Assembly (NCBI RefSeq): GCF_018139625.1
Contig: NZ_JAGSOH010000037.1
Span: 1-57,668, forward strand
Length of the DNA stretch: 57,668 nt
Direction of reading: 5' to 3'
Source: Actinospica acidithermotolerans
Lineage (GTDB): Bacteria; Actinomycetota; Actinomycetes; Streptomycetales; Catenulisporaceae
The position numbers were made by a program, and so were the translations under genes. This document shows, one piece after another, positions 4,201-57,285 of this stretch; within the stretch, counting starts at the first letter, position 1, and each line of letters begins with the position of its first letter. The notes beneath the pieces were generated by a model. That model worked only from the letters and a program-made list of their open reading frames with translations. It was not told the DNA's origin and did no database searches.

Positions 4201-5197
4201 CATAGTCGAATGCGAGCGGGAGGCCTGAGCCGTTGACCACACCGGTCAGCCGTCCGGCGTGGTCATAGCGGAAGGCGCGAACCAGCGTTTCGGCCCCGCC
4301 CGACGGATCGGCCAGCTTCAGGGCACTGATGCGCACCCCGCCGCGGGTCTCGATCGCATCGAGCCGCACGTGGTAGCCGCCCGAGTGGTAGACATCAGTC
4401 GGGATCCCGTCCGCATCGTGCACGAACGTGATCCGGTTGCCCCCGCGATCGGCGATCGCGGCGAGCGGGCGGCAGATCTGCGGCGTCGAGCCAGGCGGAA
4501 ACTGCAGTATCCAGCCGCGATCACCGAGTTCCACAGTGATCATGTCGTCCTTGCGGTCCCACTTCAGCGGCCAGCGCGGCCCGTGCGACGGCATGACCTG
4601 CTGGCCGTGCACCGTCGGGACCGGGTAGTGCAGTACCCGCCCGTCCTCGAGTGCCAGGTGGATCCCGTCGTCATCGATCTCGACACGCTGATCGAGCGTG
4701 GAGGCCCACGTAGCCCCGAAACAGCGCCCGTAGCCGTACGCCGAACCATGCCGACGCTCCAGAGACAGCGGCAGGACCCCGGGCAGCACGATGTCCTGTT
4801 GCGGCAGGAACATCTCTCCGGTCACCAGGTCGATCGGGTCGTCGGTCGCGCCGCCCTCCCCGTCCAGGTGCGCGCCCTCCTGAGCCTCCTGATCCGTCTC
4901 GGCCGCCAAGTTCTTCGCCTCGGACTCCGCCTGCGACGTCACCCCCTGGCCCTTGAACGGATCCCCGCTCTGGGCCGGCGAATGGACCGAAGTCGCCTCT
5001 GGCGGATGCTCGCCGATCTTCGTCATGTCCCGGCCGAGCTGCGCGTCACCGTCCAGATGCGCGGTAACGCCCTGGTCCACCGTTCGGGACGTGTCCTCGG
5101 CGAACTGCGCCGCCTTATGCGCTGCCTGCGGCAGGTACTCCTGCGCGTCGTTCTTCAGGCCGACGAATACGGCCTTCTCCTCGCCCCCGGCCGCCAT
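1259..5197 (-). CDS. Rhs/YD-repeat polymorphic toxin with C-terminal SCP1.201 (DddA-like) deaminase domain
   Basis: This 1312-residue protein has an N-terminal region of about 110 residues, then a DUF6531-like segment (DPIDLVTGEMFLP, about 117-200), many RHS/YD repeats (about 330-1000), and the Rhs core (YHRYYDPETGAYLSPDPLGL) ending near residue 1163. The last 149 residues form the toxin tip. There THAEGQS places H1234 and E1236, and DFCKSCG places C1265 and C1268, matching the HxE...CxxC zinc site of SCP1.201 deaminases such as DddA. The tip should deaminate cytosine in nucleic acid; dsDNA specificity is inference from the family. No signal peptide is seen. The start is ATG at 5197, right after the stop of the WXG100-like gene, which points to export by a type VII system encoded elsewhere. 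Confidence 0.85.
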   Translation of the reverse strand: MAAGGEEKAVFVGLKNDAQEYLPQAAHKAAQFAEDTSRTVDQGVTAHLDGDAQLGRDMTKIGEHPPEATSVHSPAQSGDPFKGQGVTSQAESEAKNLAAETDQEAQEGAHLDGEGGATDDPIDLVTGEMFLPQQDIVLPGVLPLSLERRHGSAYGYGRCFGATWASTLDQRVEIDDDGIHLALEDGRVLHYPVPTVHGQQVMPSHGPRWPLKWDRKDDMITVELGDRGWILQFPPGSTPQICRPLAAIADRGGNRITFVHDADGIPTDVYHSGGYHVRLDAIETRGGVRISALKLADPSGGAETLVRAFRYDHAGRLTGVVNGSGLPLAFDYDEHDRITRWVDRNGFEYRYTYRSDGRVVRGSGSGGYLDVALDYDLVARTTTVTDALGHATVHHWNQRQQTVKAVDALGHEQLIEKDAFGRVTQTTDQLGQITRIERDGFGDPVRITRPDGTGLAIAYTAHRQPAEVVGSDGALWRYEYAASGALVAVTDPTGAVARYSRDEQGRLTSVTDPLGAVSTIACNAAGLPLRAQDPLGAAIEIQRDAFGRIAAVTDPTGATTTLSWTVDGQLAERRYPDGSSERWEYDPEGSLLAHTGPHGAVTRYEYGPFEQVVARIEPDGARYQFAYDGQLRLTEVTGPTGRTWRYEYDAAGNLISETDFNGATQTYELDAAGRLVRQTNPVGQQITYTRDALGRVIERQVGAARYRFTYDAAGAITRAEGPGALLEFTRDVLGRILTESIDGRVTANTYDANGQRVTRTTPSGILASWTYDAAGKPAALESSAGRLGFDYDAAGRETTRSLGPAASLTQSFDALGQLTGQAIWAYEQPGPQGGAASWRAVQTRTYSYRADRLPTEIDDALRGNRSLALDPRGRVTAVTGANWSETYAYDELGNLATATAEPAATPAADSETDSARRAIDGTLIRQVGPTSYDYDAAGRLIRKRRRTLSGVVKEWVYAWDAENRLRQLTTPDGTTWRYSYDPLGRRTAKHATAADGTPGETVTFSWDGDRLAEAITTNPNGTIRALTWDYQPGTYTPVAQVRRTWADDAPQDEIDAEFHAIVTDLVGTPTELVDPEGRVAWHTTSSIWGRTITAPDSTAECPLRFPGQYQDAESGLHYNYHRYYDPETGAYLSPDPLGLQPSPNPQTYVDNPLGYLDPLGLAGCRYQTGNGATPDGDPWDDLATYRAKQGMPAQGSPLDQHTASRLDVDGQSFYGRNGHGMPTDIKVNAQTKTHAEGQSFQRAKNFFGGNAPAKEATLYVDRDFCKSCGPNGGVGSLMRGLGIDRLTVHSPSGTFIIDATKRPSIPVPVPTP

Positions 5198-5198
5198 A

Positions 5199-5909
5199 TT
5201 AGAAGCTCAACCCTCCCAGCCCCGAGTGCAGCCGCTCGGCGTGCCCCCGCATCGTCTCCGCATGTCCACGCAACACCGCTGTATGCTGCGCCACGGCACC
5301 CGGGTCAATCGAGAACCCCTCGCCCATCCCGGACTCTCCACCGGGAGCGTTCGACCAGTCCAGCCCGGCCAGCGCCTTTTCGACCTTCGCGAACAGCGGC
5401 TTGGCCGCCGCCTCCACGATCTCGCCGACGATGTACTGGATGATCTGCTGCTTCAGCGTCTCCAGCAGCATCTTCGCACCTTCGATGATCAGCGGCGCCC
5501 CGGCCTCCGCGAGCCCGAACGTCGCCGCCGCGGCAGCCTGATCCGCCACGAACGCCGCAGCCATACCAATCAGTTCGCCAACCGCCTCAAGCTTCTGCGC
5601 GACCACGTAGTCCGCCCCCAGATCCAGTGCCTCCGCCAGGATCCGACACCCCTCCACGATTTCATCCACGTGCTGCGCCGATAGGTGGGACCAGCCCGAG
5701 TTCAGTTGTCGCGTCGAAGCCCCTTGGTACGCCTCACCAATGTTCTTTATTGCTGCCGTTGCATCCTGGTGGGTCTGCTCGACCGCCTGCCCGAACTCCC
5801 GCACCATCGAAGCGAACTCGCGCACCTGGTCTTCGTTCAGGTACGGCCAGGGCACGCCGATGACGTTCAAGAACGTCACGACCGGACCCGGCAGATCATC
5901 CGCGGCCAC
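5199..5909 (-). CDS. WXG100-like / CpnT-N-type secretion partner of the Rhs toxin
   Basis: This protein of about 236 residues is largely helical and Ala-rich. The segment from NVIGVPWPYLNEDQVREF through AYQGASTRQLNSGW resembles WXG100-type / CpnT N-terminal domains that mark substrates for type VII (ESX) secretion. A GTG at 5909 preceded by GGGAGG is preferred; a longer reading to 6020 runs back through the promoter and has an atypical N-terminus. The stop is separated by one base from the ATG of the Rhs gene (TAA-T-ATG), so the two are co-translated. Likely role: guide or chaperone for export of the toxin. No ESX machinery is present in the window. Confidence 0.7.
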   Translation of the reverse strand: MAADDLPGPVVTFLNVIGVPWPYLNEDQVREFASMVREFGQAVEQTHQDATAAIKNIGEAYQGASTRQLNSGWSHLSAQHVDEIVEGCRILAEALDLGADYVVAQKLEAVGELIGMAAAFVADQAAAAATFGLAEAGAPLIIEGAKMLLETLKQQIIQYIVGEIVEAAAKPLFAKVEKALAGLDWSNAPGGESGMGEGFSIDPGAVAQHTAVLRGHAETMRGHAERLHSGLGGLSF

Positions 5910-42412: not shown

Positions 42413-45400
42413 TCACTGGTGCGGCCGCGGACCGCGTGGCTGCGTCGATGGCGCTTGCGGGGGACGCTGGATCGGCTCAGCGACTTGCCGCTGCGGCGCC
42501 TCGGTGCGAGTAGATGTGCGCGGCATCCCTGCGCGGGGCTGCTGCGTACGACGGTGACGGCCTTGCTGCTGCCGTCCACGCATGGGGCCGTTCCGGCTAC
42601 CGGCCTGCTGGTCGACGGCTGGCCAGGCACCGGAAGCGTCGAGGTGACCGTGTGCGACAAGAGCAGCTTCGAGCGCTTCACCGTAGACCGGCTGATCGGC
42701 GTCCGCGGCGGGCTCACGGACGTCGCCGAACCAGTCATCATCAAGCTGCGCAACGAGCTCGGCGGCAATGCGCTCCTGATCAGCGCGCTCAAGAGTGCGG
42801 TACCGATCCGCTGCCAACCGTGCGCGGCTCCCGTCGTTCACTGTCTGCGAACCGCGCAGTGCAAGAAGGGACTCGGCGGCGATCCAGTAGGCGCGGTGAC
42901 CGGTTCGACCGCGCTCTGGATACGGTCCAAGCGGGTGAGCGGGGTCATCCTCAGACACGCGGTATTGATCGCGGTAGGCAGCGATCGTCGAGACGTGATG
43001 CAGCCACTGCCCACGCTCGTCCAAGTCCTCCGGTTCTTCGCCAAGGCAGGCAGCCCACGCCGAACGACGAGAGACTGCGGCTTCGACAAGACCGTCGATG
43101 CGGCGGCGGATCAGACCTGCACGAGCATCAAGGTACGACTGCCATTCCGCGTCGACGGTCGGTGGAGCGCTGCGAAGCCATGCGGGGAGGCGCGGCTCGA
43201 ATGGCACCGCATGAGCGTGAGAGTCGAGATGGCGGTGGACATCAAGAGCGAGGCTCTCGCTAAGCGACGACGCCTCTCGTAACGCACGGCGATCGATCGC
43301 AGCGTTCACCAGTGAAGCCGGATCGTAGCCAAGGTCGTCCGCGCGACGCATCGCAAGCACCAATGCCGGCCACGCGGGTTCGAGGCGAGCACGGTTCACC
43401 CGCGCGGTACCCAGGGCCCGATGCAGCGCACCCAGCCATTCGCGTGCCAGATCTCGATCGGAGGCCGCCCGCGTCCGCACTGGAGCAAGCCCAGATGGCA
43501 CCGCTACCGGCTCTTCACTCTCGATGACCCGCTGCAGGCGCCACGAGATGACCTGCGCCACGGACTCGGCACTGCCAAGTTCACGTCGCCGAGTCGTATT
43601 CGCCAGGAGCGATAGTACATCCCAACCGCGGGCCTCCGCCTCGCGCAGAGCGCGAACGACAGCGTGCCACGCGGGGTCGATGACGATCTCTTCACCCAGG
43701 TCGGGCAACACGACCTCGACCAGCTTTCGATAGTGACCGTCCATGGCAACGTCGAGAGCGTGGGAGTAGCGCGGAACGAGAGTGGCGAGCGATTCAGCTT
43801 CGGCGTACGCCGTGCGGATCTGCTCGGTCGCAGACAGCTCGGCAGTCTCGCGGGCCACGACTTGCTCGAGTATCTCGCGCGCGACGTACGCGCCCTCATC
43901 GAAGCGTGTCGCATCTACGTGCTCGTCGGTATCTACGCTGGCGAGTTCGTGCGTGGCGACGTACAAGATGGTGCCGGACCTGCCGCGGGAGGCGAGAACG
44001 TAGAAGTTCTCACGTCCCATTTCGTCGGTCACGAGAGCGTGGCAGGCATCAACGGTGGTGCCCTGCGCGCGGTGGGCAGTCGTCGCGTAGAGCAGTTCGA
44101 CGTTCGCCGCGACGTACTCCGACGGGAGCAGAACCCGACCGTGATGCTCCAGGTGCTCCACCACCAGTGCGCCGCTTTCGTGGCGCTCGACGACGGTCCA
44201 GGCGTCGCCGTTCTTAACGAAGTCCCGAGCACCGGAGCGCAGGAGCCGGTTGTTGTCGCGGGTGACGATCCAGTCCCCGATACCCGCCGTGTTTCCGTCG
44301 TGGAGTTGTACCCCGTCTTCCTCAACCTGCTTTGCCACGACACGATCAGCGCGCGCTCGGCCGCAGAGCCGCACGACGTCAGCGTTCGTTGCCGCAGCCA
44401 TCAGGGCGGTTCGCCCTGCAAGCACGTCGGCCTTCCAGCCGTCGTACGCCCGCTCGGTCATGGCCTGCCTGGAGCCATGCCTGATCCGGTCGGCATCCTG
44501 ATAGAAGTCGAGTCCCGTGGTGTCTCCGACCCGGATCTTGAGGGTCGCTTCCGCCTCGGCAGGGTCGGCGAACCGATAGAGGGTCGTCAGCTCGACGGCA
44601 CCGGACTCGTTCGCAATCAGCCGTAGAGCGCCGCCCGATTCCACCGCGCCGAGCTGCCGGTAGTCGCCGAGCAGCCGCACGACGGCACCGCGCTTGGCCG
44701 CGATCTGAACGAGGCGGTCTAGATTGAGCGTGCCGGCCATGCCGGCCTCGTCGACGAGGACGACGTCTCCGGCGTTGAGCGTGAAGAATCCCAACTCCGC
44801 CGGCACGTCGTGGCCCGCGTTGAGGGCGTCGGCGTGTTTGCCGTTCGACCACTCCCACAAAAACTTGTGCAGGTTCTCGGCTCCGGTGCCGAGTTCGTCT
44901 ACGAGCACACCAGCCGCTGACGCTGACGTGGCCAGCGGCACGAGTCGGCCTGACCCTCCAGCATCGATCACGTCCGCGAGCGCCTTCATCGCCGTGGTCT
45001 TGCCTGCGCCAGCCGGTCCTATCCCGGCCATCAGGAGGCGGCCGTCGCACGCGAAGGCCTTCGCGAGTGCGTGCTGTCCAGCGTCGAGCGGGCGCCCGGT
45101 TCGCAGCTCGTGGTCGGCCAGGGCGATGGCTGCGGTCTCGCCGCTCACGCCCACCGTCGTCGCGTATCGCGCCGCATCCACCAGTCTGGCCTCGGCATCG
45201 AGAATGGCCTGACTCGTATACCTTTCAGCTCCATGCTGAGCGAAGACCGACGAACCATCTGACCGGCGTAGGGCCGCCGGCTCGGCCACAAGCTCTGGCG
45301 GCTCGGTCGACAGAGACCACCGTGCCAGCGCCTCCTCCACCACCAGTTCGACTGCTCGACCCTGCTCTTCGACGCTCGCGAACCGTACTGCTCGAAGCTC

Positions 45401-46753
45401 CCGTTCAGCCTGAGCGAGCACGCTCCAGCGGGTCCACGTTGCGTGACGCTCCTGCACTGCAGCCACCACCCTGGCCGCGACATCCGACACCTCCACCTGC
45501 GCGCTAGCGATAAGCGCATCACTGCTGGCCCGCCGCCCCGGCACGACCGCCATCACGCTGTTGAGCGCATCCGGTCCGAACGCTTCGGCCAGCCCCGCGC
45601 CCCACTCGGTCCGCAGCGTCGACCAAGCCCGCGGCGGCTTCTTCCCCTTTCGCGTCGCCAGCGTCGCTCGCTGGGCCAACTCGTGGGCCGCGGCGAGCGA
45701 CGGATCGCGCCCGTGGGCGGTCCGAAAATCAGCGACCAGCCGTTGGTATTCAGCTTCGATTTCCGCCCTCCGCCGAGTGAAGTGCGCCAGCACCGGGGCA
45801 GGGAAGCCCTTGATCTCGCGCACCGGTTCGCGCTTGCCCGCAGTATCAGGGCGCGCTTCGAACTCAAGGCCGAGCCGCGCATGCAGCTCGGCCTCCATCC
45901 GCGTGTTGTAGAGCTCGGAGGCGGCCACCGTCATGCGGTACAGGCCACGCGCATCCAGCGCCCGCCACTTCCCGTCAACACCCAGGACCTTGCTGGAAAC
46001 CGCGAGATGGGAGTGGAGATTCGGCTCTCCTAGCCTGTTGTCCGCGTGCTCGAACACCGCCGCGATCAAGCCGTGAGTCTCAATCTGAGCCTGGCCGGAC
46101 GAACCGGTGCGCGTGTGCGCCGCGTGCTCCTCGAGCACCGCCAGCGCTGCATCACGGGCTGCCTGGTGCGCCTGCTCGATTGCTTCCTGTACCCAAGCTC
46201 GCGGGTCCAAGCCCCACAGTCGAGAGACGGACGCGACCGGGGTAAAGACTAGGTCGAACCCGGCCACCGCCCTCCGCTGCCGCCGCGCCTCCTCGCGCTT
46301 GACCTTCTTCTCCTCCGTCGCTGTCGGGGCTCGTCCCGTCTCCCGCTGGATCGCCTCCAAGCGCGCCGATACCCGGTCATCGAACGGCCCCAGGTCCTTG
46401 TATTCGGCGTACGGGCGGCCCAATGACGCCGCCTTGCGCGCCTCCGCGTTGACGGTCGCCAGTTGCTTCTCGGTCATCCCGGCCTCGACGTGCTCGCGCC
46501 GGTAGGCGGACATGATCGCCCCGGCATCTGGGTGCAGCCCGAGGCCGAACAGCGCCGTCATCTGCTCCTCGGACACCGCGCCCGAGATGCCAAGGGCGCT
46601 CAACCCGTGCCCGATCCACCGGCCCGGCGGATTGCCACTCTGGGTGTAGTACTCCGCAGCAGACCTGCCGCGCTCCGGGCTAGTGTCTCCCGCAGCGACC
46701 TGCCTGGTCAGGTACGTATAACCGTCACCTGCGGTGATCTTGTGGACCGTCAT
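42413..46753 (-). CDS. MobF-family relaxase-helicase (TraA-like)
   Basis: From ATG 46753 the protein has 1446 residues; a GTG at 46771 is possible. The relaxase part has tyrosines near the N-terminus (GYTYL, AEYYTQSG), the PPGRWIGHG block, and the metal-binding His in EPNLHSHLAVSSKV (His247, His249), typical of MobF. A superfamily-1 helicase follows with Walker A GIGPAGAGKTTA and DEAGMAG in the centre, and HRAQGTTVDACHA further on. It nicks oriT, stays covalently attached and unwinds the strand. It is unlinked in orientation from the T4SS operon. The C-terminus is Gln/Pro-rich. Confidence 0.9.
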   Translation of the reverse strand: MTVHKITAGDGYTYLTRQVAAGDTSPERGRSAAEYYTQSGNPPGRWIGHGLSALGISGAVSEEQMTALFGLGLHPDAGAIMSAYRREHVEAGMTEKQLATVNAEARKAASLGRPYAEYKDLGPFDDRVSARLEAIQRETGRAPTATEEKKVKREEARRQRRAVAGFDLVFTPVASVSRLWGLDPRAWVQEAIEQAHQAARDAALAVLEEHAAHTRTGSSGQAQIETHGLIAAVFEHADNRLGEPNLHSHLAVSSKVLGVDGKWRALDARGLYRMTVAASELYNTRMEAELHARLGLEFEARPDTAGKREPVREIKGFPAPVLAHFTRRRAEIEAEYQRLVADFRTAHGRDPSLAAAHELAQRATLATRKGKKPPRAWSTLRTEWGAGLAEAFGPDALNSVMAVVPGRRASSDALIASAQVEVSDVAARVVAAVQERHATWTRWSVLAQAERELRAVRFASVEEQGRAVELVVEEALARWSLSTEPPELVAEPAALRRSDGSSVFAQHGAERYTSQAILDAEARLVDAARYATTVGVSGETAAIALADHELRTGRPLDAGQHALAKAFACDGRLLMAGIGPAGAGKTTAMKALADVIDAGGSGRLVPLATSASAAGVLVDELGTGAENLHKFLWEWSNGKHADALNAGHDVPAELGFFTLNAGDVVLVDEAGMAGTLNLDRLVQIAAKRGAVVRLLGDYRQLGAVESGGALRLIANESGAVELTTLYRFADPAEAEATLKIRVGDTTGLDFYQDADRIRHGSRQAMTERAYDGWKADVLAGRTALMAAATNADVVRLCGRARADRVVAKQVEEDGVQLHDGNTAGIGDWIVTRDNNRLLRSGARDFVKNGDAWTVVERHESGALVVEHLEHHGRVLLPSEYVAANVELLYATTAHRAQGTTVDACHALVTDEMGRENFYVLASRGRSGTILYVATHELASVDTDEHVDATRFDEGAYVAREILEQVVARETAELSATEQIRTAYAEAESLATLVPRYSHALDVAMDGHYRKLVEVVLPDLGEEIVIDPAWHAVVRALREAEARGWDVLSLLANTTRRRELGSAESVAQVISWRLQRVIESEEPVAVPSGLAPVRTRAASDRDLAREWLGALHRALGTARVNRARLEPAWPALVLAMRRADDLGYDPASLVNAAIDRRALREASSLSESLALDVHRHLDSHAHAVPFEPRLPAWLRSAPPTVDAEWQSYLDARAGLIRRRIDGLVEAAVSRRSAWAACLGEEPEDLDERGQWLHHVSTIAAYRDQYRVSEDDPAHPLGPYPERGRTGHRAYWIAAESLLALRGSQTVNDGSRARLAADRYRTLERADQERIAAELVAQLDDDWFGDVREPAADADQPVYGEALEAALVAHGHLDASGAWPAVDQQAGSRNGPMRGRQQQGRHRRTQQPRAGMPRTSTRTEAPQRQVAEPIQRPPQAPSTQPRGPRPHQ

Positions 46754-47228
46754 CACGAGCCTGATCACCACCTCGGCTGGGCGAACTGCACCGCCGCGCC
46801 CGTCGCGGCGCCCATGATCAGATTAACTGCAAAAGGTGTGTTCATGCCATTTGAGCTGTTTTGTTCAGGAGGGCGAGCAGCGTGCTCCCGTCGGCAGGCT
46901 ATGAGCTGGCCTCTTGCGTACGAGGACGGCCTGGACCGCGGAGTCTTGTCATTTGAAGTGGCACGCTCCAGCCTGCCCTCTCCAACGACAGCGCGCCTGC
47001 TCAAAATCCTCTGGCGGAAGAGTCAGACGACTTCTGCCAAAGCTTCTACACTGCACCGAAGCCAGACGGCGCATACGGGCCCGGTCACCGCAACACGTCG
47101 CTGCTCAGCAACGGTCACGGCGGCATGATCTTGCTCGACGTCGTCCACGGCCGCATCATGTTCGTCGAGGTCCTCTTCTACCCACCCGCATCCGTGCTCT
47201 ACAGGGATGTGACGCGCGGCCGCCAGGA
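46754..47228 (+). other. Gap upstream of the relaxase: decayed coding sequence and candidate oriT region
   Basis: No intact gene is supported over these 475 bases. Broken plus-strand protein-like pieces occur: MSWPLAYEDGLDRGVLSFEV near 46901 and, in another frame, GMILLDVVHGRIMFVEVL near 47125-47180. They may be parts of one frameshifted small gene. The segment at 46820-46870 is AT-richer than its surroundings. MobF oriT sites commonly lie next to the relaxase gene, so this is the first place to look, but no clear nic-type inverted repeat was recognised. Confidence 0.3.
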
Positions 47229-51352: not shown

Positions 51353-52375
51353 CTATTCGATGAGAGAGCTTTCGGCCCGGCACTCCGGCGGATGCGCGAG
51401 GAGAGCGTCAGCATCCGCGCGCCTGTTCGCTGCGCGATTGGCTCCGAGGCGCGGAAGCGCCTGCACCACATAACGTCGCGCCGTGCCGCGGGAGAGCGGC
51501 GCAGGAAGTGACGCAGCGGCGTCGTATGCAGCGGCATTGCGTTCTCGCTCATCTACCGAGAAGAGGCGCAGATCGCCGAGAGCCACCTGCTGCGCCAGTG
51601 CGGATTCGAACGCGACGCGCTTCGGCCCAGGGCCACGGCCGCGCCCCTGGCACGGAAATCCGTCTGCACGCTTGCCAAGGTTCTTGCGCGGCGCGTCTGT
51701 CTGCGCCGGTTCCTCATCCGCCGCCTGGGCCGGAGCGGCGCACAATGCGCCATTGGTATCCTCCTGCTCCTCTTCCACTCGCTCAGGGCGCGGCGGTTCT
51801 GCTGCGTGGCGCAGCACCGCACGCCATGTGCGCCACATCATCGAAGGGAAGTTGAGCCAGAGCACGAAGGTGCGCCATGTACCGCGCCGCATCTCTTCCT
51901 TGGTCAACAGATTGCGCAGGTTGGCCAGAAGGTGCTCCAGAAAGACGGCGTACATCAACGGCGGAATGGCAGCGACGAGGTAGCCGCCAGGGTTATGAGA
52001 CGGCGTATGAAGCACGTTCATCGCCACGCTCGCGCCGATGCAGCTGGCGAGCGTGAGGCACGTTGAGGCTCCGCGCCGTCGGCGCAGCGCCTCGTACAGG
52101 CGCAGCATCGAGACGCCAGCCGTGCCCGCATCCAGCAGCAGAGCCCAGACCCTGGCTTCGGGCGCCTTGTTGCCGTTGTGGGCCAGGACGTAGTCGACCT
52201 GAGCGTGGTACGAAAGCCACGCGGAAGCGCCGGCGAGCACGAGCAATACGACGCTCGCCAGAATCAGCAGGCCGTTGACCACCCACGTGGGCAGCTCCGC
52301 AGCATCGGAGGACTGCTCGTGTCGGCGGGCGGATGTGGCCGTGCGTGCGTGTAAAGCCATAGTCTGGTCGTACAT
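51353..52375 (-). CDS. DUF2637 membrane protein, spread (Spd)-type
   Basis: This 340-residue protein has about four transmembrane segments in residues 28-160 (VVNGLLILASVVLLVLAGAS, VWALLLDAGTAGVSMLRLY, YLVAAIPPLMYAVFLEHLLA), the DUF2637 layout. A polar C-terminal region ends with a helix-turn-helix-like part (LSRGTARRYVVQALPRLGAN). DUF2637/Spd proteins are linked to intramycelial plasmid spreading in actinomycetes (known). GAGGAG precedes the ATG, and a strong hairpin lies in the leader. Confidence 0.75.
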   Translation of the reverse strand: MYDQTMALHARTATSARRHEQSSDAAELPTWVVNGLLILASVVLLVLAGASAWLSYHAQVDYVLAHNGNKAPEARVWALLLDAGTAGVSMLRLYEALRRRRGASTCLTLASCIGASVAMNVLHTPSHNPGGYLVAAIPPLMYAVFLEHLLANLRNLLTKEEMRRGTWRTFVLWLNFPSMMWRTWRAVLRHAAEPPRPERVEEEQEDTNGALCAAPAQAADEEPAQTDAPRKNLGKRADGFPCQGRGRGPGPKRVAFESALAQQVALGDLRLFSVDERERNAAAYDAAASLPAPLSRGTARRYVVQALPRLGANRAANRRADADALLAHPPECRAESSLIE

Positions 52376-52449: not shown

Positions 52450-52740
52450 TCAGCGGTTTTGAGTCATCTCCCGCTCTTCGAGAAACAGCAGCCACGAAGC
52501 CAGGAGTTGCTCCTCGGTGTCGCCGTGCAGTCGGCCGCGGTGCCGAAGCATGCCGTCGACAGCGACGCGGATCAGCGTGTTGGACGTGATGCGCTCGACT
52601 TTGGTGCTCCGCGCGTCGTGAAGGTTGCGAGCGAAGTCATCCAGGCTGGTCCACTGATCCGGCCTGATCCGCGCCGTCTTTGGACGTGTGGACGCCATCG
52701 CTGTCGACTCGCTGAGTTCGACGTCTTCGGAGGGGGTCAT
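52450..52740 (-). CDS. Small ribbon-helix-helix-like DNA-binding protein
   Basis: This 96-residue protein from ATG 52740 (GAAAGG five bases upstream) has a disordered N-terminus and a core TARIRPDQWTSLDDFARNLH followed by RITSNTLIRVAVDGMLRHRG. The strand-helix-helix pattern resembles RHH proteins used in plasmid partition and repression. It is upstream of the DUF2637 gene on the same strand. GAACTTTC direct repeats in its promoter region may be its operator. Confidence 0.55.
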   Translation of the reverse strand: MTPSEDVELSESTAMASTRPKTARIRPDQWTSLDDFARNLHDARSTKVERITSNTLIRVAVDGMLRHRGRLHGDTEEQLLASWLLFLEEREMTQNR

Positions 52741-52822
52741 GGTGACCTTTCTCGGGCTGGGTCGCACGTGGCACGTAGCGAGTGCTCAGTCCATTTCTAG
52801 CCCGTCGGAGTTCGGTTTCCCA

Positions 52823-52862
52823 GAACTTTCACCCTTTTGGAGTCTCTGAACTTTCGAACTTC
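52823..52862. repeat. Direct repeats GAACTTTC / GAACTTTC / GAACTTC
   Basis: Copies at 52823-52830, 52848-52855 and 52856-52862 lie in the divergent region between the RHH-like gene and the first structured leader. Short tandem direct repeats are the usual target form for RHH repressors. Confidence 0.45.
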
Positions 52863-52888
52863 GGAAGTACGATGTTTATGGAAGCACA

Positions 52889-52985
52889 AGAGGGGGCCGG
52901 GTTGCCGCCCGACCCCCTCAACAGATGCCCGCCTCGGTGTTCGAGCACCGGTCGGGCCAGGACACCCTGTATAGGAGGGAATCCA
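52889..52985 (+). ncRNA. Structured 5' leader A (two hairpins plus SD)
   Basis: Hairpin 1: GAGGGGG (52890-52896) and CGGG (52898-52901) pair with CCCG (52908-52911) and CCCCCTC (52913-52919) around TTGCCG. Hairpin 2: CGGTG (52935-52939), loop TTCGAG, CACCG (52946-52950). Then CCTGTATAGGAGGG carries the SD ahead of ATG 52986. The whole arrangement recurs at 53590-53691 with compensatory changes, which supports a real RNA structure. Confidence 0.6.
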
Positions 52986-53186
52986 ATGTTCCATTTTGCC
53001 ACCCCCGGCGACTCTCCCTCGCCCGCGGAGGACGAGCTCTTCCGCCTCCTCAGCGACGGCGCCGACGCCCCCCTCGACCCGCTGGGGCGCCTCAGTATGC
53101 TGCTGATGGACGCCAGCCCGCACCTGATCGCCGTGGTCCTCGCGGCGATCATCGGCTTCGGGTCGGATGAGAGGTGGGCCTGGTGA
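52986..53186 (+). CDS. Small hypothetical protein
   Basis: This 66-residue acidic protein has an excellent SD (AGGAGGG) and a hydrophobic C-terminal segment (SPHLIAVVLAAIIGFG, about 44-59) that could be a membrane helix or amphipathic anchor. No family recognised. Its stop overlaps the GTG of the following frameshifted gene (GTGA), implying coupling. Expression is likely controlled by leader A. Confidence 0.6.
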   Translation: MFHFATPGDSPSPAEDELFRLLSDGADAPLDPLGRLSMLLMDASPHLIAVVLAAIIGFGSDERWAW

Positions 53187-53576
53187 GCGGGCAAACGGCG
53201 ATCCTCATCGAAAGCGACGGTGCGATCACCACCCCGCCGTTCGCCGGAATCGCAGAACCCGATCACCCGGGAGGACGGCTCTGGCACGTCCGCAGCCTCC
53301 TCGACGCGGCTTATCCGCAAGGCGCCAAGATCCCGGGAAACCATCGAATTGGTTGCCTGGGTCGACGGGTACGGCCGACGCCGCATGCGGGACGCGAACG
53401 TGGTGGTCAGCCACATCCTCGCCAGCACGGTCGGCACACCGTTGCAGATCATCTGCGGACCCGTGCTGATCACCGGCGGCTCGCCTGAAGGGCCGTTAGG
53501 GCTGGGATCCACGCAAGTCGTCGAGGCGTTCGAGCGCCTCGGACTGGAAGTTGGCGACGAGCCCTCCGCGGGCTAG
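53183..53576 (+). pseudogene. Frameshifted gene, weakly DUF3846-like
   Basis: From GTG 53183 the frame reads QTAILIESDGAITTPPFAGI to LLDAAYPQGAKIPG and then loses protein character. From about 53335 the frame one base further reads ETIELVAWVDGYGRRRMRDA and continues to the stop at 53576 (LQIICGPVLITGGSPEG). Joined, they give a protein of about 130 residues with a VNE-like/gp-type ending that vaguely resembles DUF3846. A one-base indel, sequencing error or programmed +1 shift are all possible. Confidence 0.5.
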
Positions 53577-53589
53577 CGGAGCGCGCCCG

Positions 53590-53691
53590 AATCCGTGGGG
53601 CTGGGTTGCCACCCAGCCTCACGTCTCACCCACCTGGCTCGGCGTTCGAGCGCCGAGCCAGGCCACGACGTCCCTGTATAGGAGGGCTTCA
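53590..53691 (+). ncRNA. Structured 5' leader B (two hairpins plus SD)
   Basis: Hairpin 1: CTGGG (53601-53605), loop TTGCCA, CCCAG (53612-53616). Hairpin 2: CCTGGCTCGGCG (53633-53644), loop TTCGAG, CGCCGAGCCAGG (53651-53662), a perfect 12-bp stem. CCTGTATAGGAGGG follows, before ATG 53692. It is homologous to leader A in order, loop sequences and SD block, with paired substitutions in both stems. Confidence 0.65.
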
Positions 53692-53886
53692 ATGCCTCAG
53701 CTCACCATGTCCCGGCGCAAGTTCGCCGGAGTACCAGTCATCATGACCACCGCCGCCGCTCCCCCGCCTGGCGTGCGGAGCGAGTCGCGTCAACTCGTCG
53801 CGCTCGGCTGGCTCTCGCGGACCGCCGGCCAAGTCACCGTCTTCGGCCAGTTGGCCGACCGCAACTCGCCTCCGACCGGTCGGTGA
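53692..53886 (+). CDS. Small hypothetical protein
   Basis: This 64-residue basic protein has AGGAGGG seven bases before the ATG. The sequence (VRSESRQLVALGWLSRTAGQ) shows one helix of moderate hydrophobicity. No family and no clear similarity to the product behind leader A, although the leaders are related. It lies just before another small gene. Confidence 0.5.
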   Translation: MPQLTMSRRKFAGVPVIMTTAAAPPPGVRSESRQLVALGWLSRTAGQVTVFGQLADRNSPPTGR

Positions 53887-53891
53887 TTGCC

Positions 53892-54176
53892 ATGTCCGAC
53901 CTCAACGAGAGCTACGTTGCGAAAGCGCTGATCGCCGACGCGCTGTTCTGCTCCGACCTCAGGACCGGCGCTTCACCCAATGACAGCGAGTTGGCTGACG
54001 CGATCCGTTCCGCATTGCAGCGGCGTCGTGGCTGGAACGGCTGCACCCGCGCGGTTGCCACGGCGTTCGTCGAGTCGCCCATCAGCGCTGCCGAGCGTGA
54101 AGCGTGGTGCCACCAACTCGCCGTCCACGCACTGACCGCTGCCGAAGTCCGCGCAGTGCTCAGCCGAATGGAGTAG
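53892..54176 (+). CDS. Small hypothetical helical protein
   Basis: This 94-residue protein is helical (SYVAKALIADALFCSDLRTG, SELADAIRSALQRRRGWNGC, LAVHALTAAEVRAVLSRME). ATG 53892 is preferred over GTG 53883. It follows the previous small gene after five bases and is probably translated with it. It precedes the xis-int pair, a position often held by small regulators; no family recognised. Confidence 0.55.
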   Translation: MSDLNESYVAKALIADALFCSDLRTGASPNDSELADAIRSALQRRRGWNGCTRAVATAFVESPISAAEREAWCHQLAVHALTAAEVRAVLSRME

Positions 54177-54350
54177 TGCCCAGCGACCGGGCAGGCGCTT
54201 GAGCGGCAGGTAAAAGGGCTTCCGGGTGTTCATTCCCGCATAAGCAGCCAATGCCCGTTAGCTTGCGCGAACGATAACCGTAATCCAGCATGAACAGTAA
54301 GCCCAGTCGGACGCGATCGTTCAGCTGGAGCGAACAGTGGACATAGAAAG

Positions 54351-54390
54351 CGGCCCCGGCGCTCAGTCGCCAAACAGTCCGCCGGGGCCG
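54351..54390 (+). promoter_or_regulatory. Leader hairpin before the excisionase gene
   Basis: CGGCCCCGGC (54351-54360) pairs perfectly with GCCGGGGCCG (54381-54390) over a 20-base loop. It ends 24 bases before ATG 54415, just upstream of the AAGGAGG SD. Confidence 0.55.
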
Positions 54391-54414
54391 CACCCCCTGC
54401 AAGGAGGCGATCCC

Positions 54415-54771
54415 ATGATGCCCCAACCCCCCAGTCGTACTCCCGCTCCCGACACTGGAGCGTTCGTCGGCCCGTTCGCGGTCGGCGCATCTGGCGTGGA
54501 CAGTGAGTCCGCGCTCCATCCCACCAACGTCGCGAACGCCGCGTGGGCTGGTGACGCCGACGGCCTGCTGAGCACCGAGGAGGTCGCTGCCCTGCTCGGC
54601 GTTGACCCCTCGACGCTTCGCCGCTGGCGGAACGCGAAGCCGCCCGAGGGGCCGACTTTCGTGCCGATCTCCGAGCGAGTCACGAAGTACTGGAGGAGCG
54701 ACGTTCTCGGCTGGCTCAGCCGGATGCGCGTCGTCACCGCGGCCCCGGCGACCAAGAAGGCGGGCCACTGA
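54415..54771 (+). CDS. xis: Excisionase-like MerR/HTH protein
   Basis: A 118-residue protein from ATG 54415 (AAGGAGG upstream). After a disordered half, LLSTEEVAALLGVDPSTLRR (about 51-70) and FVPISERVTKYWRSDVLGWL form a winged-helix excisionase fold. Xis proteins bind att DNA and direct the integrase toward excision. Its stop overlaps the integrase start by one base (TGATG), the standard xis-int arrangement of actinobacterial ICEs. Confidence 0.85.
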   Translation: MMPQPPSRTPAPDTGAFVGPFAVGASGVDSESALHPTNVANAAWAGDADGLLSTEEVAALLGVDPSTLRRWRNAKPPEGPTFVPISERVTKYWRSDVLGWLSRMRVVTAAPATKKAGH

Positions 54772-56018
54772 TGGTCGACAAGATTGAAATCCCGCTCGGC
54801 GTCAAGGTTTCAACAGACATCGAGTATCGCGGCCCCTACCCCAGCCCGTACCGCGCCCGCGCTCGCTGGTGGGATCCGGCGGAGAAGCGCCGTCGGTCCG
54901 CCTCCGACTCGTTCAGCACCGAGGACGAGGCCAAGGCTTGGCTCGACGGACTCGTCCAGCAGGCGTCCGTCGGAGTCGATCCCGACAAGGCGAACATGAC
55001 GCTCAAGGAGTACGGAGAATCCGTGTGGACCCTGGCGTTTCGCGGGCTCGAGCCGAAAACGCTTGACCCGTATGGCTTGGGATGGCGAAAGCTCGTCGTG
55101 CCGTCGATCGGTCACATCGATGTCCGCAAGCAGTCCATCGGGATCACCGACCGCGCTGTCCACGCATGGATCGCGGAAGGGATTGGCAAGTCGATGGTGA
55201 AGAACGCGCTCGCCGCCGTGGGCCGCGTGGGAGACCAGGCAATCCGCGATGGCCTGATCAGCACCAACCCGTTCCGCATCACCGGGTGGCAAAGCGCGTA
55301 CGCGAAGGCCGTGGCAGAGCTCGAAGACCCCCGCGCTCTCGCCCTGGCCGACTACGCGGCGCTCAAGAAGCTCTCGAACGCTCTCGTCGCGGCCTCGGCG
55401 GACAAGCGCTACAAGGACCGTCGCGGGTATGACGGGTGGGGCGACGTCGTCGAGTTCATGGCGTGTACGGCCAGCCGCATCGGCGAGGTCTCCGGCGTGC
55501 GCGCGGCTGACATCGACCTGGAGACCTGGATCTGGACGCTCACGCGGCAGACGACACCGAGCCCTGGCGGACTTCAGGACAAGCGCCCGAAGAGCAAGCG
55601 AGCCAGGCACGTGCCGATCATGCCCGAGATCCGTCCCATGGTGCGGCGCCGTGTCGAACTCGCGATGGCGAACGGCGGCAAGATGGCGCGGGTCTTCGCC
55701 GGCCCGCGCGGTGGCCGCATCACGACCGCTGTCCTGCGTGACGCCACCGACTGGGACAACGTGGTGACCCAGCTCGGATACGAATACCTTCGGCGGCACG
55801 ATCTCCGGCACACGGGCTTGACGTGGATGGCCGATGCCGGAGTGCCGCTGCACGTGCTTCGGGAGATCGCCGGGCACGGAGATCTCGCGACGACCCAGCG
55901 CTACCTTCACGCGAGTCACGACAAGATCCACAGCGCGGGCCACGCCCTCCAGACCTACCTTGTGGGCCCCTGGTCCCAAACTGGTCCCAAAGACCCTCTG
56001 GGAGGCTCCCATCCTTAG
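54771..56018 (+). CDS. int: Tyrosine site-specific integrase
   Basis: This 415-residue protein has an N-terminal Arm-binding part, a SAM-like core-binding domain (about 68-165) and a catalytic domain. The catalytic residues are Arg236 (ACTASRIGEV), His343 and Arg346 (RRHDLRHTGL), His369 (IAGHGDLATT) and nucleophile Tyr378 (QRYLH). It would recombine the element's attP with the 3' part of the tRNA-Pro gene 69 bases downstream. The gene appears intact, so the element may be mobile. Confidence 0.95.
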   Translation: MVDKIEIPLGVKVSTDIEYRGPYPSPYRARARWWDPAEKRRRSASDSFSTEDEAKAWLDGLVQQASVGVDPDKANMTLKEYGESVWTLAFRGLEPKTLDPYGLGWRKLVVPSIGHIDVRKQSIGITDRAVHAWIAEGIGKSMVKNALAAVGRVGDQAIRDGLISTNPFRITGWQSAYAKAVAELEDPRALALADYAALKKLSNALVAASADKRYKDRRGYDGWGDVVEFMACTASRIGEVSGVRAADIDLETWIWTLTRQTTPSPGGLQDKRPKSKRARHVPIMPEIRPMVRRRVELAMANGGKMARVFAGPRGGRITTAVLRDATDWDNVVTQLGYEYLRRHDLRHTGLTWMADAGVPLHVLREIAGHGDLATTQRYLHASHDKIHSAGHALQTYLVGPWSQTGPKDPLGGSHP

Positions 56019-56080: not shown

Positions 56081-56086
56081 CTCTGG

Positions 56087-56130
56087 TCGGGCTGACAGGA
56101 TTTGAACCTGCGACCCCCTGACCCCCAGTC
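56087..56130. other. Probable attachment junction in the tRNA-Pro 3' half
   Basis: Int/Xis genes lie directly beside the 3' half of the tRNA, the usual target of actinobacterial ICE integrases (pSAM2 also uses a tRNA-Pro). A second copy of this segment marking the left end was not seen in the window, so the core cannot be delimited. Confidence 0.55.
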
Positions 56131-56160
56131 AGGTGCGCTACCAAACTGCGCTACAGCCCG
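56087..56160 (-). tRNA. tRNA-Pro (anticodon GGG)
   Basis: The minus strand folds as a 74-base cloverleaf: acceptor CGGGCTG/CAGCCCG with discriminator A, D stem GCGC/GCGC, anticodon stem CCTGA/TCAGG with loop CTGGGGG giving anticodon GGG, and T arm GCAGG-TTCAAAT-CCTGT. CCA is not encoded. Its 3' end faces the integrase gene, as expected for an intact tRNA restored at the att junction. Confidence 0.95.
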
Positions 56161-57054: not shown

Positions 57055-57285
57055 CGGCCCACTGGACGACAGGACGACGCACCGGGACGGCAGCGCGAGG
57101 CGCGGGACGACAGGACGACGCGCGGTACAACAGGACGACGCGCAGGACGACAGGACGAGGCGCTGGACGACAGGACGACGCGCAGGACGACAGCACGACG
57201 CGCGGGACGGCAGCACGAGGCGTGGTACGGCAGGACGACGAGCAGGACGGCAGCACGACGCGCGGGAACGCCGGAGCGAGACCCA
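57055..57285. repeat. GC-rich irregular tandem repeats
   Basis: Many variants of GGACGACAGGACGACGCGC follow one another, with units of about 18-25 bases and substitutions. All reading frames become low-complexity Arg/Asp/Thr strings, so this is non-coding satellite-like DNA. Confidence 0.7.

Follow-up and report, generated by a model that had tools for sequence, protein, structure and literature searches.

Two structured RNA leaders of a single operon in a conjugative element of Actinospica acidithermotolerans are probably the target sites of one antisense RNA encoded by the element, which would work in the manner of FinP. Comparison of related loci showed that in conjugative elements of Streptomyces and of the Catenulispora group a conserved leader of two hairpins, ending in the ribosome site at its 3' side, stands ahead of the leading gene of an operon that diverges from a regulator gene. 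In the Catenulispora group a further copy (B) stands before a gene farther down that operon. What we propose as new is the evidence for a putative antisense RNA opposite the promoter-proximal leader, leader A.

Two leaders in a conjugative element and their relatives

The right end of the window (the whole stretch of 57,668 nucleotides analysed) is a conjugative element. Its marker is a TrwC-type relaxase/helicase (42413..46771, minus strand), and it further encodes a DUF2637 protein (51353..52375, minus), a helix-turn-helix protein (54337..54771, plus) that is excisionase-like, with an NCBIfam excisionase match below the cut-off, and a tyrosine integrase (54771..56018, plus), which adjoins a tRNA-Pro gene (56084-56160, minus). 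The left attachment site of the element was not found within the contig. A nine-copy repeat with a 20-base period lies beyond the tRNA and the integrase (57065-57284). The lead operon diverges from a small regulator-like gene adjoining leader A (52450..52767, minus; no Pfam match) and runs orfA, orfB, orfC towards the helix-turn-helix and integrase genes. orfA (52986..53186, plus) encodes a 66-aa protein that has a membrane-type C-terminal stretch, as judged by eye, and no match in Pfam or NCBIfam; an alignment of it has 10 members. orfB (53692..53886, plus) encodes 64 aa and orfC (53883..54176, plus) a conserved 97-aa protein of the same operon. The orfB stop overlaps the GTG start of orfC (GTGA, 53883-53886), as it does in several relatives, suggesting translational coupling. 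A gene at 53174-53576 (plus), between orfA and leader B, seems to be frameshifted, with its halves in two frames; its relative in locus L038 (8116-8517) is a single open frame throughout.

Leader A consists of hairpin 1 (52890..52919, plus; 30 nt, hexaloop TTGCCG, one sense-strand C.A mismatch), hairpin 2 (52927..52957, plus; loop TTCGAG) and the 15-base block CCCTGTATAGGAGGG (52965..52979, plus), which contains the Shine-Dalgarno (SD) sequence and ends 6 bases before the ATG at 52986. Leader B repeats this arrangement, with hairpin 1 at 53594..53623 (plus; loop TTGCCA), hairpin 2 at 53633..53662 (plus; a 12-bp stem with a TTCGAG loop identical to that of leader A) and the same block with its SD (53672..53686, plus), 5 bases before the ATG at 53692. 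Folding z-scores against dinucleotide shuffles were -3.3 for leader A and -5.3 for leader B. The two leaders lie where an earlier note on this DNA had placed them and fold as it described. The paired substitutions that it named, from C-G to T-A in hairpin 1 and from T-A to C-G in hairpin 2, are present too; covariation from two copies alone proves little. Its term 5' leader is apt for leader A, which follows a promoter-like region, and not for leader B, which is intercistronic, starts 17 bases past the stop of the upstream reading frame (stop at 53576) and has no promoter visible by eye in the sequence ahead of it. The sense promoter region of leader A (52820..52880, plus) carries upstream palindromic sequences, A-type upstream regions being compared by eye, and a -10-like TACGAT (52868-52873, plus), with the sense start expected about 10 nt before hairpin 1.

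A 14-base form of the block occurs without mismatch at exactly two sites in the window, leaders A and B; with up to three mismatches there are five matches in the window, a total within chance expectation, as 8 of 100 shuffles contain at least as many. Hairpin 1 of leader A is near-invariant across the 10 A-type copies, and CCC and AGGAGG of the CCCTGTATAGGAGGG block are invariant in all 21 Catenulispora-group copies. Two other readings of the leader were rejected by eye: an upstream leader peptide, as the ATG within leader A is not conserved among relatives, and loop-loop or loop-to-start-codon pseudoknots, which had no covarying complementarity.

The covariance search that the earlier note had suggested returned further structured copies. 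A model built from the two window copies found full-length copies in relatives, where paired A and B leaders lie 325-704 bases apart. A second model was built from 21 copies and a third (R3) from 41, these 41 being 21 Catenulispora-group copies, mostly A/B pairs, and 20 Streptomyces loci (16 of them plasmids). The 21-copy model found two copies only in the window's genome, leaders A and B, and matched 8 of the 14 genomes of the window's family, the same eight in which the regulator-like gene is present; named records among these relatives are Catenulispora and Actinocrinis. Homologues of the regulator, which led to the Streptomyces loci, were found outside the family at nine loci (L061-L063, L072-L077), five of which (L061, L062, L072, L073, L076) carry the leader in the same place and four of which lack it; the 41 copies do not include L073, a duplicate of L061. 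DNA searches matched 22 plasmid records. All 16 that were fetched, from Streptomyces, scored with the Catenulispora-trained model (E<=0.005); of the others, three repeated fetched values, two matched in the promoter part only, and one, from Comamonadaceae, was dropped as its match spans 37 bases only. The window region 52780-54200 used as a query against plasmids gave no match.

The earlier note had proposed a search of actinobacterial genomes; in the samples searched the leader was confined to one order. R3 matched 13 of 293 genomes of the order, eight in the family and five others. Two of its matches, G012 and G211, were outside the training set, and both adjoin a gene like the regulator of L124 and L125. 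Among 394 genomes of the class R3 matched the window and G012 only, and among 396 genomes of the phylum the 21-copy model matched the window and, weakly, two loci of family f20. Both weak matches were taken for chance, L054 (29.6 bits) on surroundings unlike such an element and L055 (27.1 bits) on score alone. These large-set searches (relatives, order, class and phylum) used stricter filters, so weak copies may be missed. A loose DNA pattern had matches in 103 of the 293 genomes; the best of 29 loci checked with R3 reached 18.4 bits (E 0.03), and these were taken for chance. Exact matches to this pattern were G012, G170 and G242, all R3 hits, and G073 (L097), which R3 did not match. Viral contigs held no relative of the first-gene protein and no match to the DNA pattern, and phage records gave no match. 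An antisense-strand match in L037 (E 0.006) was excluded by a tighter threshold before the 41-copy model was made. At the Rfam gathering score the window and 19 loci returned only tRNAs and no match to the leaders, in keeping with the earlier note's view of an undescribed RNA; relaxed thresholds gave scattered sub-threshold matches to unrelated families only.

That the leader itself is the conserved unit, as the note had argued, is supported on two sides. Profile comparison found no convincing homology between the downstream proteins of the A, B and Streptomyces types; for the small proteins, B against Streptomyces gave an E of 0.03 and a probability of 1.7%. The same leader also adjoins two types of regulator. 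The second type, that of L116 and L123-L125, has sub-threshold RHH matches. It is matched in the flanks of L127 and L129, where the regulators of the window and of L112 have no match, and at the two loci compared by tblastn neither type matched the other. L116, L123-L125, L127 and L129 differ from L110, L112 and the window in their divergent regulators and promoter regions and have the same leader.

Covariation and the strand that folds

In the 41-copy alignment 92.6% of stem cells pair, compared to 72.5% in shuffles and at most 68.5% in 25 simulated alignments. The covariation score was 0.497, against 0.164 for shuffles and <=0.105 for slid partners, and 16 of the 20 pairs changed on both sides. 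Under a tree-aware null, 6 of the 20 pairs were significant (E<0.05), and all six belong to hairpin 1. Among 4712 column pairs the four that ranked highest were predicted pairs; the alignment was fitted to the structure, so this test favours the structure. Hairpin 2 has two-sided changes in 8 of its 11 pairs, none individually significant. Covariation beyond phylogeny is borne out on the 41 copies and was weak on 21, where the earlier tree-aware test had found only 2 of 21 pairs significant.

In most Streptomyces leaders P1 and P3 are separated by an additional hairpin, P2, whose loop is of the same kind; where P2 exists the model aligns it as hairpin 1. UU-hexaloops are kept on dissimilar stems in these leaders. 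The P1 and P2 loops share a core triplet in all 13 leaders in which both were called (22 examined), and the P1 and P3 loops agree in 2 of 4. A second strong hairpin with other loops lies between annotated genes 2 and 3 of Streptomyces lead operons (L112 2286-2381 and L110 3658-3751, and likewise in the corresponding gaps of further Streptomyces plasmids).

The antisense strand folds better than the sense strand in 9 of 10 A leaders and all 20 Streptomyces leaders, whereas among the 11 B and C leaders the sense strand has the better fold in nine. With the loops masked, the antisense strand was still better in 6 of 10 A and 19 of 20 Streptomyces leaders, and the sense strand in 9 of 11 B and C leaders. 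A C.A mismatch on the sense strand is a U.G pair on the antisense strand. The non-canonical cells follow the same division, with 18 C.A and 7 G.U in A leaders, 24 C.A and 1 G.U in Streptomyces leaders, and 8 C.A and 22 G.U in the B leaders and the single C copy; the A-type C.A cells fall mostly in two column pairs, of which 50-82 may be an alignment matter. The pooled sense-strand count was 30 G.U to 50 C.A, and the split by copy type was chosen after this result was seen. The wobbles and mismatches say that the strand selected to fold is apparently the antisense strand, in the main, at promoter-proximal copies, and that the sense strand appears to be favoured in B copies. An antisense RNA paired with its target is a better reading of the leaders than a self-contained leader switch.

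Loop concordance within elements

The A and B copies are old paralogues: A copies resemble A copies and B copies resemble B copies. Nevertheless, in all 10 elements leaders A and B carry one and the same hairpin-2 loop, and six types of this loop occur among the elements (permutation p=0.0001), although five of the ten have one common loop type and many copies are closely related, so that the counts overstate independent events. The five bases before AGGAGG behave similarly, agreeing more closely inside elements (0.90) than across them (0.63; p=0.0003), with full identity in 5 of 10. Both results held without L037, a largely converted pair (hairpin-2 loop p=0.0005, pre-SD bases p=0.0015), and in the eight Catenulispora-type elements alone (p=0.0035 and p=0.0175, respectively). 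For the hairpin-1 loop, A and B have the same sequence in 8 of 10 elements (p 0.012), which is not significant without L037 (p=0.11). No within-element excess of A/B identity was found in the stems of hairpins 1 and 2 or the linker (p 0.58-1.00), and hence shared ancestry and plain gene conversion both fail to explain the loop match. As old paralogues whose stems have diverged, A and B must have changed together at unpaired bases. The loop match inside elements suggests that the loops are recognised by a partner specific to each element.

Two genomes illustrate this. G015 carries two elements with the loops TAACAG (L043) and TTACCG (L044), and G009 two with TTAAGAG (L037) and TTACCG (L038), each loop being matched between its own A and B. 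One genome can carry two or three leader sites with different loops (contigs C17 and C24 of G015; C17, C49 and C74 of G009). In L037, from Actinocrinis (4867-4969, 5285-5388), most of leader B is a near-copy of leader A, a recent conversion; the 5' side of hairpin 1 differs in leader B and the outer stem is lost.

The predicted duplex between the antisense loop of A and the sense loop of B has an energy of -11.3 kcal/mol within and -5.0 kcal/mol between elements, which is loop identity restated in energy terms. A YUNR U-turn is common, though not universal, in the recognition loops of antisense RNAs. It is present in 3 of 10 sense loops of hairpin 2, in 8 of 10 sense loops of hairpin 1 in leader A and in none of the 10 antisense hairpin-1 loops; in every element one of the two sense loops of leader A, that of hairpin 1 or that of hairpin 2, contains it.

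A candidate antisense RNA and its known counterparts

A candidate extended -10 element (TGG-CAAAAT; 52993..53001, minus) of an antisense promoter lies inside codons 3-6 of orfA. On the antisense strand the pattern TGN-NANNNT occurs in all 32 promoter-proximal genes, that is in 10 of 10 A, 20 of 20 Streptomyces and 2 of 2 further copies, and as it was noticed in the same 30 sequences before it was counted, only the two further copies, the B and C genes and the controls test it. The pattern is found in 0 of 10 B genes, 0 of 1 C gene and 0 of 27 hand-picked neighbouring control genes. At the third position of codon 4 all 32 promoter-proximal genes have T, whatever the amino acid, compared to 58 of 573 (A) and 48 of 1784 (Streptomyces) third bases elsewhere in the same genes. 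No -35 box for this promoter was recognisable by eye, and a scan for consensus (sigma-70-like) promoters at three loci (the window, L041 and L112) found nothing on either strand. The sole terminator-like site in 52700-53300 is on the minus strand, exactly at hairpin 1 (0.5 expected by chance); none was called on the minus strand in L041 and L112, and none on the sense strand at the three loci scanned. The predicted antisense RNA, of about 105 nt (52880..52986, minus), with ends that we infer, would begin at the orfA start codon and run through the ribosome site and then both hairpins of leader A, hairpin 1 being the last.

We propose that the extended -10 promoter within the first orfA codons drives this leftward RNA of about 100 nt, which would fold into complementary hairpins and terminate at hairpin 1. 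It would then kiss the loops of the sense leader and pair across the ribosome site, so that orfA, in cis, and orfB-orfC, in trans, would be translated less. Because pairing would start at the loops, the loops would have to match in A and B, and elements present together in one cell could each retain a loop code of their own. The arrangement would probably serve to hold the lead operon low until the antisense RNA disappears through transfer or copy loss. We infer antisense transcription, kissing and repression from sequence patterns.

The main rival to this antisense RNA is an RNA-binding protein encoded by the element, which would read the loops of both leaders, repress or activate translation and co-evolve with the leader. 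Concordant loops within elements would follow from it, as would the concordant pre-SD bases, the UU-hexaloops on unlike stems and the matching P1 and P2 loops of Streptomyces. We nevertheless hold such a protein to be unlikely, since it predicts neither the antisense -10 in 32 of 32 promoter-proximal genes nor the strand flip between A or Streptomyces copies and B copies, and the small first genes, a natural candidate to encode it, are not shown to be related to one another. A generic structured 5' UTR, stabilising the mRNA and partly masking the ribosome site without a trans-acting partner, seems more doubtful still: it would leave the loop concordance and the antisense-strand signals unexplained. 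Strong folding (z < -2 in 28 of 41 leaders) agrees with it, as does a predicted SD accessibility a little below that of 116 control genes (mean unpaired 0.22 vs 0.31, p=0.02; 40 of 41 leaders scored), although the leader itself masks the ribosome site only weakly.

The hairpins might instead act as single-stranded DNA in the transferred strand, as an ssDNA promoter or a leading-region priming site, given that the leaders head an operon in conjugative elements, some typed MOBF, and that the bottom strand folds better at A and Streptomyces copies. However, the transferred strand is one strand throughout, whereas A and B favour opposite strands, and the tie to the SD and start codon would have no explanation; we regard this role as very improbable. 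We give least credence of all to a ligand-sensing riboswitch or an attenuator with an intrinsic terminator, to which the 5' position and conserved structure could point. No Rfam family matches at threshold, no terminator-like site is called on the sense strand of the three loci, the two simple hairpins have element-specific loops without an evident ligand core, and the downstream genes are not shown to be related.

Returning to one antisense RNA with two target leaders, we see slightly better than even chances that it represents an undescribed antisense system, in which the promoter is hidden in the first codons, control is exerted in cis and, through a duplicated leader, in trans, and a code of a few loop bases prevents cross-regulation between elements in one cell. 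No description of this leader was recognised in titles and abstract starts among the literature matches listed, subscription journals being mostly outside their scope, and the available text of a paper on small RNAs in Streptomyces (PMC2422843) makes no mention of plasmids or conjugation. The two leaders with one presumed regulator, and with a loop code that differs even inside one genome, form a built-in natural experiment, and silent codon positions would make or break the antisense promoter. To our knowledge, little is known at the RNA level about the silencing of operons in Streptomyces conjugative elements. If the proposal is true, it would supply the engineering of Streptomyces with orthogonal RNA regulators, and the compatibility of elements with one another would have a basis that can be tested.

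Several known systems bear comparison. Anti-Q/prgQ of pCF10 is a case of antisense control on a Gram-positive conjugative plasmid (PMC6540685). Anti-Q acts there by inducing a termination structure in prgQ RNA; in the present elements, in contrast, the antisense RNA would cover the ribosome site, and no terminator-like site is called on the sense strand. The traJ-II motif (RF01760), listed as a candidate structured cis-regulatory RNA of Proteobacteria and Enterococcus faecium, is alike in being such a candidate with a name linked to a conjugation gene, and the same paper describes the STAXI motif as pseudoknot repeats near genes that handle DNA, possibly ssDNA (PMC2864571). The leaders described here do not match traJ-II at the Rfam threshold; they share repeated structured units with STAXI and differ from it in being hairpins tied to a ribosome site. 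The closest parallel in working is FinP, which has two stem-loops with plasmid-specific loops and of which five finP alleles are reportedly named in the title of a 1986 paper. FinP is a cis-encoded antisense RNA of IncF plasmids that pairs over the traJ ribosome site with a predicted kissing step (PMC9977716, PMC7555446). In the window and 19 loci the leaders matched none of the Rfam families of antisense or leader RNAs, FinP's included, at the gathering score, and we do not claim a sequence relation. The likeness to FinP/traJ lies in a conjugative element and an antisense RNA, here predicted from sequence, over the ribosome site of its target mRNA. Unlike FinP/traJ, the present elements are actinobacterial, the target genes differ from traJ when compared by description, and one candidate antisense RNA would serve two leaders.
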